A stretch of 64,000 bases of DNA. Origin: Alviniconcha marisindica. Taxonomy: Eukaryota > Mollusca > Gastropoda > Provannidae. Positions 8,901 through 63,333 of the stretch are shown in pieces. The notes beneath the pieces were generated by a model. The model was not told the DNA's origin. It did no database searches and saw only the letters and a list, made by a program, of their open reading frames with translations. Made by a program: the position numbers and the translations under genes. The stretch is taken from contig JABMCL010002745.1 in the NCBI GenBank assembly GCA_018857735.1, forward strand, positions 94,501 to 158,500, given 5' to 3'. Each line of letters starts with the position of its first letter. Position 1 is the stretch's first letter.

Positions 8901-11739
8901 CAACAACATTATTTTATGAAATTTGCAGAGTTCTTTCTGTCCATGGATTTTGTTTCCTTTTTCTTGCTTTTATTAGTTGGTTTGAATCACGTATTGACTT
9001 GTGCTTGGTAATTAATATACCTTCAGCTTCTCTGTGTATGATAACACTAACAGAATTTTTTAGGGGTGATTAGTCTGATTGGGGCTGTTTGTACTGAGTT
9101 CTGGTAGGCATCAAATGCATTGTCCCTAAGGCCAGTGTTGAGTGCATCATTTCATCACACACATTATGACACATTCTCAGTGCACCATTTCATCACACAT
9201 TATGACACATTCTCAGTGCACCATTTCATCACACATTATGACACATTCTCAGTGCATCATTTCATCACACATTATGACACATTCTCAGTGCATCATTTCA
9301 TCACACATTATGACACATTCTCAGTGCATCATTTCATCACACATTATGACACATTCTCAGTCCATCATTTACTTTCCAGAGTGGATGCAGTCAGGGATGC
9401 CATCAAGTCTGGCTTGGAAGAGCAGGTGAGGAAGTTTGGTCTCTGCTGCCGTTTTGCCACAGCTGTTAAAAATGCAGTGACCTGCTGACGCGTCCTAGAA
9501 TCCCCAGCAAATGAGTGTGTTTAGCCGCTCAGGGCTGGTGTGCTTGAACCATCCCAAGCTGATGTAATATTGTACAGGACAGGGAATTGCTCTTAACCTG
9601 GTGTGTTTGCGAAAACATGTTTGACATCTTTCTTTGAAGTAAAACAGTAGTGTTGCAGCTTTCAGTTATAACATACACGTGTTTGCTGCTGTCCCAAAGG
9701 ACAGTCTGTGGCAGTCCCCCCCACACACTTTCTTGTCATTTATGAGGTTTTTCTGTCCCCACCCCACCCCCATAGTTTTGTGTTGGTAGGAGTTTTCTCC
9801 CAACCTTGAGCTGGTGTCGGTTGGAGTTTTTCTTCTCCCCCCCCCCATGAGCTGGTGTTGGTAGGTCGGTTGCCCCCACCCCCATGAGCGGTGTTATGGA
9901 GTGTTTGTTTCTGTCCCCCCCATGGCCCTGGTGTTGGTATGGTGTTTGTTTCTCTCTTTTCTGTCTCTCTCCCCCAACTTTCGAGCTATTTCGAGTGGGT
10001 TTTTTCCGTCCCCCATGAGCTATGTTTAGTAATTTGTTTTTCTCTCCCCAACACACTCTTGAGCTGGTGTCGGTATGGAGTGTTTGTTTTCCCCCCATGA
10101 GCTGGTGTTGGTAAGGGTGTTTTCTGCCCCCCCCCAACACACTCTTGAGCTGGTGTCAGTATGGAGTGTTTGTTTTCTGTCTCCCCCCATGAGCTTTTGG
10201 TTGTTGTTTGTTTCTGTCCCCCCCCCCCCCACCGTATGGAGTGTTTGTCTTTAGTTTCCCCCAACCCCAACATCCCCAGCAATTTTAATGGTGGCACCCA
10301 ACTCTTTTTGCGAGATTTCCATTGTAACGTGCCCATGGATTAACTGTTTTTGTTTTTTGCGACAGGTCCCAGACCTGTTGGGCACCCCGATGACCTTCTC
10401 CTTGTTTGAGTGGGTCAAGGACAACCTGGACTCGCTGTTGGAAAACCAGCCTGACGCTCCCCTTCCACAGGTATGTATGGGTTCACACCGTCAGTCCCAC
10501 AGGTTTGTGTGGGTTCACACCGTCAGTCCCACAGGTATGTATGGGTTCACACCGCCAGTCCCACAGGTTTGTATGGGTTCACACCGTTGGTCCCACAGGT
10601 ATGTATGGGTTCACACCATCAGTCCCAGAGGTTTGTATGGGTTCACATTGTCCCTTTCACAGGTCACTCATTATCCCTTCCACATTTGCTGTTCAAATTT
10701 TGGAGTCAAGCTGTCATCTTTGTGTGTGCCACGCAGTAGGTATGAAAAATAAACAAAACAAACCTAAACATGTAAAAAAAACATATATAAAAAGAGAGAA
10801 GTTAGCTAGTTTTCAGGACCCTCGTTTTTACTTTTGCACCCAACCTTTTTTTCTTCAATACACTTACCTACAGCATTGTTGGAGCTTTTCTCTGCCATTG
10901 GTGACAAGGCTTTGTGACATCAGCCAGTTTCATTTCAAAAGATGGTGCAGTTAATGTGCTGCTGGGGGTGGAAAATGTTTAGTGGGTATTCTACAATCAG
11001 GCAGGTTGTCCTGAACGAAGGCAGCTGCCCATCCCACCACGATGGCACACCTGTCTCCGTTTCACACAATGACACCTGTTTCACACAATGACACACCTGT
11101 CTCTGTTTCACATGATGACACACCTGTCTGTTTCACACAACACACCTGTCTCAGTTTCACACAATGACATACCTGTTTCACACAATGACACACATCTCTG
11201 TTTCAAATGATGACACACCTGCTTCACACAACACACCTGTCTCTGTTTCACACAATGACACACCTGTCTCTGTTTCACACAACACACCTGTCCATTTCGC
11301 ACGACACACCTGTCTCTGTTTCACATGATGACACACCTGTCTCTGTTTCACACAACACACCTGTCCATTTCACACGACGACATATCTGTCTCTGTTTCAC
11401 CCAATGACACACCTGTCTGTTTCACACAACACACCTGTCCATTTCGCACGACGACACACCTCTCTGTTTCACACGATGACACACCTGTCTCTGTTTCACA
11501 CGATGACACACCTGTCTCTGTTCCAGGCCAGCAGTCTTAGCAGTCTGGCATCGGCGGGGGGAGGGGAGGAAGGGGGCGGGGCCAAGAAGGAGAAGAAGGA
11601 GCAGCTGTCGAAGCAGCAGAAGCGTAAGATGTTTGACAGGTTCGGCGGCAACATGGAGGACCGACCCCGTGGCTGGGACTGGGTGGACGTCATCAAGCAC
11701 TTGTCGCAAACAGGCGGGAGGGCCAGTGACACCAGCTGA
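5923..11739 (+). CDS. RWDD4: RWD domain-containing protein 4 homologue
   Basis: Six plus-strand exons join in phase: 5923-5946, 7237-7317, 8589-8698, 9380-9425, 10366-10470 and 11527-11739, giving 192 residues (human about 188). The ATG at 5923 opens [20 protein letters not shown], the start of the RWD fold (about residues 5-105), with the YPDEAP motif at about residues 52-57 typical of RWD domains. Exon 5 carries [20 protein letters not shown]. The C-terminus has a lysine-rich segment ([19 protein letters not shown]) and the conserved [15 protein letters not shown] end. RWD domains are protein-interaction modules related to the E2 fold; vertebrate RWDD4 has no well-defined role that I know. 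All splice sites are GT-AG. Introns 1, 3, 4 and 5 contain tandem arrays, several touching splice sites. Intron 2 carries a LINE-like tail. Confidence 0.93.
6184..6960. repeat. 29-bp minisatellite in RWDD4 intron 1 (about 27 copies)
   Basis: The core GTTGATTCTGAGCCACTCT recurs about every 29 bp with CTGATTCAG linkers and small deletions. No copy resembles an RWDD4 exon edge, so this array is not splice-site derived. Just downstream, 7176-7193 is a poly-G run. Confidence 0.9.
7790..8205 (+). mobile_element. Dispersed 400-bp repeat, copy A (LINE-like 3' tail)
   Basis: It starts at the CTTTCCGGCACCTTCCTCCA motif and ends at ATGTTGTAAACCATTGCTTG. In between are blocks shared with 59490-60035 (same strand) and 12345-12745 (reverse), such as GAGCACCAACAACAAAATG and TTATAAAAGAAACATCTGAT. 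The 59-60 kb copy is preceded by a WNSIPP-type LINE terminus, so this is probably a LINE 3' region. It lies in RWDD4 intron 2 and is followed by a TG-rich tract at 8205-8400. Confidence 0.7.
9146..9367. repeat. 36-bp minisatellite next to the RWDD4 exon 4 acceptor
   Basis: About six copies of a 36-bp unit (ATTATGACACATTCTCAGTG core) stop 12 bp before the acceptor AG at 9378-9379. The last unit runs into the polypyrimidine part of the acceptor. Each unit carries its own TTCTCAG, a plausible decoy acceptor. Confidence 0.9.
9750..10262. repeat. Imperfect C-rich/GT-rich array in RWDD4 intron 4
   Basis: Units of about 50-60 bp contain GAGCTGGTGTTGGTATGGAG followed by TGTTTGTTT and a run of 6-11 C. 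Spacing is irregular. No exon-edge sequence is included. Confidence 0.75.
10464..10672 (+). repeat. Splice-donor-derived array of RWDD4 exon 5 (32-bp unit, 6 copies)
   Basis: The exon 5 end CCACAG followed by its donor GTATGTATGGGTTCAC is repeated in about six copies, alternating GTATGTATGGG and GTTTGTATGGG. Each unit is CCCACAG + GTATGT-like donor + TTCACACCGTCAGT. The true exon/intron border is 10470/10471; all copies lie downstream in intron 5. Confidence 0.9.
11040..11526 (+). repeat. Pyrimidine-tract array reaching the RWDD4 exon 6 acceptor
   Basis: Irregular units of about 27 bp (ACACCTGTCTCTGTTTCACA) run up to the acceptor. The last unit is CACCTGTCTCTGTTCCAG with the exon starting at 11527. 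The acceptor's own polypyrimidine tract has evidently been multiplied about 18-fold. Confidence 0.85.

Positions 11740-63333: not shown

Follow-up and report, generated by a model that had tools for sequence, protein, structure and literature searches.

Tandem arrays across splice junctions in three neighbouring genes of the caenogastropod Alviniconcha marisindica

Gene models and conserved joins

The window analysed here, a stretch of 64,000 nucleotides from Alviniconcha marisindica, holds RWDD4, ERCC6L, and MUL1, together with a fourth gene that, judging from its protein, looks C1orf50-like. We built the four gene models by reading the sequence and by scripted splicing (Table 1). Pfam searches identified an RWD domain in RWDD4 and GIDE and RING domains in MUL1, and PDB searches gave no more than the ERCC6/SNF2 family and weak similarity to designed TPR proteins. 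The nearest ERCC6L orthologue was that of the caenogastropod Babylonia areolata (83% identity over the searched part), followed by that of Batillaria (78%). RWDD4 was 81% identical to its orthologue in Babylonia and 79% identical to that in Littorina saxatilis. For MUL1, the best full-length match came from Littorina saxatilis (78%), and a half-length protein matched at 86%.

The orthologue comparison covered RWDD4, ERCC6L, and MUL1. We aligned the 20 ERCC6L exon joins with eight orthologues, of which four were printed (Babylonia, Batillaria, Haliotis, and Aplysia). None of the 20 joins had a gap relative to Babylonia, and the flanks were weakly conserved where exon 1 meets exon 2, exon 17 meets exon 18, and exon 18 meets exon 19. 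The five joins of RWDD4 and the three of MUL1 also match their orthologues, with small alignment gaps a few residues off the join in the linker between RWDD4 exons 5 and 6.

Several other features of the genes were recorded. ERCC6L and MUL1 lie head to head, with about 190 bp between their start codons (58294 and 58486), which suggests a shared promoter. ERCC6L exon 6 (51075-51201, - strand) has one extra base compared with the orthologous frame, at or close to a stretch of five G; this is a probable frameshift that would reflect an assembly slip or an allele. Within the array of ERCC6L intron 2, the stretch at 56100-56310 is distorted by homopolymers and is perhaps poorly assembled. ERCC6L exon 19 (20192-20354, - strand) carries a coding 42-bp tandem repeat with a 14-residue unit that, by eye, is absent from the Babylonia sequence. 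ERCC6L intron 14 (27200-34700, - strand) contains several similar interspersed copies that appear tRNA-like by eye, such as those near 29180-29240, 32450-32530, and 33740-33800; ARAGORN reported no tRNA genes.

Arrays and decoy splice sites at exon edges

Tandem Repeats Finder returned 146 rows for the window. A sequence-only reading of this DNA had described arrays across eleven splice junctions and a two-copy case at the ERCC6L exon 11 donor, and all twelve were recovered in place by repeat finding, a junction probe, and alignment of the copies (Table 1). The probe consisted of 10 exon and 10 intron nucleotides and was searched, with 20% edits allowed, in the junction's own adjacent intron. 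Extra copies were found at 12 of the 62 junctions in the four genes, about one in five exon edges. These comprised seven donors (RWDD4 exon 5; ERCC6L exons 5, 11, 12, 14, and 16; MUL1 exon 3) and five acceptors (ERCC6L exons 7, 12, 15, and 21; MUL1 exon 4). Probes of 6 exon plus 10 intron and of 14 exon plus 12 intron nucleotides each detected 11 junctions, and outside the 12 there were no matches with any of the three probes. The reading had spoken of three neighbouring genes, and arrays are indeed present in RWDD4, ERCC6L, and MUL1, but it left out the fourth gene, where none of the six junctions had probe copies.

Table 1. Genes and arrays in the window, with positions counted from its first letter (TRF, Tandem Repeats Finder; models, gene models; probe, junction probe; copies, aligned copies; join, conserved join)
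Feature	Positions	Strand	Description	Evidence
RWDD4		+	6 exons	
ERCC6L		-	21 exons	
MUL1		+	4 exons	
Fourth gene	1125-3761	-	4 exons in window; 3' end outside window or not found	
RWDD4 exon 5 donor array	10459..10664	+	32-bp unit; true junction 10470|10471	TRF, probe, copies, join
ERCC6L exon 5 donor array	52465..52911	-	~23-bp unit, ~9 exon nt; true junction 52904|52903	TRF, probe, copies, join
ERCC6L exon 7 acceptor	48488..49999	-	array 48607-49999, ~35-bp unit, plus true junction 48507|48506	TRF, probe, copies, join
ERCC6L exon 11 donor	44293..44348	-	two-copy 29-bp duplication; true junction 44325|44324	TRF, probe, copies, join
ERCC6L exon 12 acceptor array	41993..42891	-	21-bp unit, 2-3 exon nt; true junction 41994|41993	TRF, probe, decoy dinucleotides, join
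ERCC6L exon 12 donor array	41610..41889	-	24-bp unit, ~10 exon nt; true junction 41880|41879	TRF, probe, copies, join
ERCC6L exon 14 donor array	39946..40388	-	~60-bp units, ~6 exon nt; true junction 40383|40382	TRF, probe, copies, join
ERCC6L exon 15 acceptor array	25676..26061	-	52-bp unit, ~22-24 exon nt; true junction 25698|25697	TRF, probe, copies, join
ERCC6L exon 16 donor array	23000..23750	-	57-bp unit, 36 exon nt; true junction 23713|23712	TRF, probe, copies, join
ERCC6L exon 21 acceptor array	17530..17948 (TRF 17616-17948)	-	54-bp unit, ~17 exon nt; true junction 17547|17546	TRF, probe, copies, join
MUL1 exon 3 donor array	61378..61920	+	50-bp unit, ~12 exon nt; true junction 61387|61388	TRF, probe, copies, join
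MUL1 exon 4 acceptor array	62171..62817	+	~43-bp unit, ~14 exon nt; true junction 62805|62806	TRF, probe, copies, join
RWDD4 exon 4 acceptor	9141..9370	+	array 9 bp away; unit without demonstrated junction	TRF, models
RWDD4 exon 6 acceptor	11046..11522	+	array 4 bp away	TRF, models
ERCC6L exon 8 donor	46759..46972	-	array 8 bp away	TRF, models
ERCC6L exon 8 acceptor	47160..47662	-	array 12 bp away	TRF, models
ERCC6L exon 13 donor	41237..41363	-	array 9 bp away	TRF, models
ERCC6L exon 19 donor	18874..19344	-	array 11 bp away	TRF, models

The exon part of the unit ranges from 2-3 nt at the ERCC6L exon 12 acceptor to 36 nt at the exon 16 donor, in agreement with the 2-36 bp given earlier, and the exon parts of the aligned copies match the true edge with mean identities between 0.68 and 1.00. 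Because the joins are ungapped or agree with the orthologues, the conserved true site at the affected junctions is the outermost, exon-proximal copy, and from this conservation we infer that splicing uses that copy. The frame through the exon 16 array is open from 23023 to 23883. The exon 14 donor array contains several pyrimidine-rich TACAG|GTGAGT copies, adjoining a 14.7-kb intron, that have the look of recursive splice sites.

Six more arrays lie 4-12 bp from a junction and none overlaps it, as judged from Tandem Repeats Finder and the gene models. Five of them, at RWDD4 exons 4 and 6, on both sides of ERCC6L exon 8, and at ERCC6L exon 19, had been noticed before; the array at the ERCC6L exon 13 donor had gone unlisted. 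By eye, the exon 8 donor array is possibly a decayed junction array.

The arrays surround true splice sites with many decoys, as had been expected. Counting by pattern, we found 157 decoys with an intact GT or AG over the 12 junctions, 131 of them in ERCC6L and up to 37 beside one true site. When scored with a matrix built on the remaining 24 donors and 26 acceptors, 94 of the 157 equalled or exceeded the true site. If used, 59 would keep the frame, 17 of those without a stop, and 140 would lead to a frameshift or a stop; at exon 16, 7 of 11 decoys are in frame and free of stops. Decoys of the AG|GT type occur at 7 of the 12 junctions (RWDD4 exon 5; ERCC6L exon 11, the exon 12 donor, and exons 14 and 15; MUL1 exons 3 and 4).

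The splice dinucleotide was kept in 155 of 166 decoys at 11 junctions (exon 11 not included), with references taken from the decoys themselves, and in 112 of 121 in a cruder alignment that left out the exon 12 acceptor. As other adjacent pairs of the same units predict that 148.6 of the 166 would be kept (mean percentile 0.59), decoy erosion was not seen, and decoy GT/AG pairs are neither eroding nor clearly better kept than other unit positions. The counts thus speak neither for nor against selection on the decoys.

Frequency of junction-spanning arrays

The introns contain 46 array clusters, which occupy 16.3 kb of 48.0 kb (~34%). Counted as intronic families, merged by hand, the arrays number 43, of which 12 span a junction and 31 have no exon edge; the sequence-only reading had mentioned arrays of the latter kind but understated their number. 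Since about one third of the intron sequence is array, some junction-spanning families (three to five) are expected by chance. We compared the observed numbers with nulls devised for this analysis. A per-base comparison was dropped as a null: any intron base picked at random has a ~34% chance of lying in an array, while exons cannot carry copies.

For the placement null, each cluster was placed at random in its own intron, with exon overlap of up to one unit allowed, in 20000 placements. In this most conservative of the tests, there were 9 overlaps compared to 4.0 expected (P 0.009), and 8 compared to 3.9 when intron 14 was left out (P 0.028). Of the 46 arrays, 15 were at a junction or no more than 12 bp away from one, a number that none of the 20000 placements reached (5.2 expected); for non-overlapping arrays within 12 bp, the numbers were 6 observed and 1.3 expected (P 0.001). 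For the seeding null, arrays were collapsed to single units and the chance that a random progenitor straddles a junction was determined. The 12 of 43 families observed compare with 3.3-4.9 expected (P 4.5e-5 to 1.1e-3). At five score cut-offs between 80 and 500, and whether or not the 14.7-kb intron 14 was included, the families exceeded random seeding 2.1-4.7 fold, depending on the null and the cut-off (P 1.3e-2 to 3.2e-5).

The P values are optimistic, because this single window was chosen for its striking look. Junction-spanning arrays exceed chance, modestly, in one hand-picked window. A comparison of array overlap with random intron positions had been proposed along with the first description, and, run within the window, it yields this modest excess; the idea of a process or selection acting at exon edges is upheld to that extent and is tempered by the families that chance alone would supply.

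Array origin and comparison with known systems

We consider it likely that the arrays are boundary minisatellites of the mirage type known from amphioxus, with duplication, turnover that includes the real exon edge, and choice of the exon-proximal splice site. A short segment across a splice junction would be duplicated in tandem and, provided that the exon-proximal site is used, the extra copy would be invisible in the mRNA, like neutral intron DNA. Extra copies would then expand and turn over by slippage or by unequal exchange of one- and two-unit blocks, the genuine exon edge included. Exon definition is the pairing of the two sites nearest each other across an exon. Splicing would select the exon-proximal copy through such pairing, in which case donor and acceptor arrays would both be harmless. 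The excess at junctions could arise because arrays that are anchored to a conserved exon edge disappear more slowly, or because arrays are born more often at such edges, two routes that our data do not separate.

The exon parts of the units encode residues that are conserved in other gastropods (for example, YFTK.ELRELF at ERCC6L exon 15, ELWTLFD or a close form at exon 7, and FGE|VCRG in MUL1), indicating that the arrays derive from the exon edges rather than the edges from the arrays. The two-copy case at exon 11, in which 24 exon nucleotides are identical, looks like the first step of array formation. Six donor arrays have three decoys or more, and in five of them, exon 14 being the exception, the second decoy is a closer match to the true junction than the first one; in the aligned cores of exons 12 (22 nt) and 16 (56 nt) there are no differences between the true junction and the second decoy. 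This likeness fits a duplication of two-unit blocks that may have included the real junction.

A codon near the end of exon 16 is TTG in the exon and in eight aligned decoys and AAA (K) in three, including the most distal aligned decoy. In orthologues (the motif was found in 22 of 50 proteins), the position is occupied by K in both other caenogastropods represented and by Q, E, or L in the rest, with L present in Haliotis rufescens and Mercenaria. With the K/L polarity set by two caenogastropods, we have moderate confidence that the AAA decoys retain ancestral sequence within the array and that exon and array later exchanged sequence. We also considered faster protein change at the affected ERCC6L edges and rejected it, as residues identical to Babylonia made up 45 of 54 at affected and 158 of 186 at unaffected edges, which are about equally conserved. 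Within exons 3-16 alone, the share was slightly lower at affected edges (42 of 48, compared to 113 of 120).

One alternative is that no special process operates and that, in introns so rich in minisatellites, some arrays cross junctions by chance and are tolerated like the others. The large share of intron sequence in arrays, the families expected at junctions by chance, the 31 families away from junctions, and the small margins of the conservative placement null all accord with this account, but 12 families were observed, the clustering within 12 bp was never matched in the random placements, and the excess appears at all five cut-offs. We find chance a doubtful explanation. Exon edges might also be hotspots of minisatellite birth, for example through transcription-linked nicks or stalled forks, or through short direct repeats around the splice consensus. 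Depending on the cut-off, families straddle junctions at 4.1-8.1 times the interior rate per available base, and both donors and acceptors are hit. However, in a small test on the 43 usable junctions among the 50 unaffected ones (seven were skipped for an array or microsatellite in the stretch compared), direct repeats of 5 or 6 bases shared with nearby intron were no more frequent than in 6294 controls. Motif-driven seeding was likewise rejected, as arrays off junctions were not visibly richer in motifs resembling donors or acceptors in a small, weak test whose dinucleotide shuffles, being more diverse than arrays, bias it toward no enrichment. Together, the two tests lend no support to a simple sequence cause, and we think a birth hotspot rather unlikely.

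The decoys could be useful, tuning splicing or, in the case of AG|GT decoys, providing the ratchet points of recursive splicing where introns are rich in arrays. In keeping with such a role, AG|GT decoys are found at more than half of the affected junctions, and the best scores within the exon 14 array, which lies beside the 14.7-kb intron, are high for an acceptor (13.9) and for a donor (10.4) alike. Nevertheless, any copy of an AG|GT junction will itself read AG|GT, retention of the decoy dinucleotides is only a little above that of other adjacent pairs in the unit, and splicing is described as undisturbed in the available portions of the amphioxus reports (PMC3087553, PMC3902484), all of which makes a function for the decoys very improbable. 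An assembly artefact would find some encouragement in the one-base frameshift of ERCC6L exon 6 and in the homopolymer-distorted stretch of intron 2, but substitutions and indels distinguish the copies of an array from one another, every junction has its own unit, and twelve unrelated arrays that respect junctions would be hard to produce by error, so that we give this explanation almost no credence.

Boundary minisatellites with exon-proximal site choice remain our preferred reading. As a speculative extension, which we hold to be more doubtful than not, exon edges of caenogastropods might be a preferred and perhaps self-renewing home for minisatellites. The conserved edge would anchor the array and exchange sequence with it, so that decoys could overwrite the coding edge or preserve the form it had in the ancestor; intron growth would be driven genome-wide, and exon definition would screen out at least 100 intact decoys in a gene like ERCC6L.

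With up to 37 intact decoys per true site, and most decoys scoring at least as high as that site, these genes offer a natural test of splice-site choice, and the rows of decoys raise the question of how cells choose the right one. The arrays also suggest a route of intron lengthening, possibly of intron birth, and they are a warning that such junctions can lead gene prediction and the splice-aware mapping of reads astray.

Rogers, in 1989, reportedly described how introns can be gained when AG/GT proto-splice sites are duplicated. The arrays share with gain of that type a tandem duplication containing a splice signal, but here pre-existing introns grow at one end. Intron gain by splice-signal duplication should leave the two ends of an intron alike, and we rejected it for the 31 introns examined, in which ends of the same intron (mean 6.00, maximum 8) were no more alike than ends of different introns (mean 5.93, maximum 11). 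In human duplicated genes, the available text describes internal tandem repeats at exon-intron boundaries, with minisatellite units of ~30 bp, that modify transcripts or the intron set and were proposed to create new introns (PMC2812944); the present genes, by contrast, have conserved joins and showed no gain of introns. Introns of conotoxin genes (PMC3862624), earthworm metallothionein genes (PMC12783039), and GC-rich avian genes (PMC6792250) hold tandem or simple repeats, none described across a splice junction in the portions available. Among the matches listed, which represent titles and abstract openings of CC-licensed PMC literature, there was no mollusc case of junction-spanning arrays.

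The closest parallel is with amphioxus, where the available portions of two reports describe mirages as minisatellite-like tandem duplications across exon-intron boundaries, at 5' and 3' ends, in Adh3 and the globin genes BflGb6 and BflGb9 (PMC3087553) and also in TnC and PGBD5 (PMC3902484), with AG/GT kept in many copies and concerted evolution within arrays (PMC3087553, PMC3902484). The units described here likewise span the boundary on both the 5' and 3' sides and keep AG/GT in most copies. They differ in belonging to a mollusc rather than a cephalochordate, in affecting 12 junctions of three neighbouring genes, and in having an excess over background that was measured. In addition, whereas the cluster boundaries of BflGb6 are described as excluded from homogenisation (PMC3087553, in the part available), the edge copy here appears to join the turnover. 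The locus, known here from its DNA, is a dense occurrence of the mirage kind in another phylum, extending a lancelet phenomenon to a mollusc. The kind itself is known from amphioxus; what is added is its dense occurrence in a caenogastropod, the signs that the real junction joins array turnover, and the measured excess.
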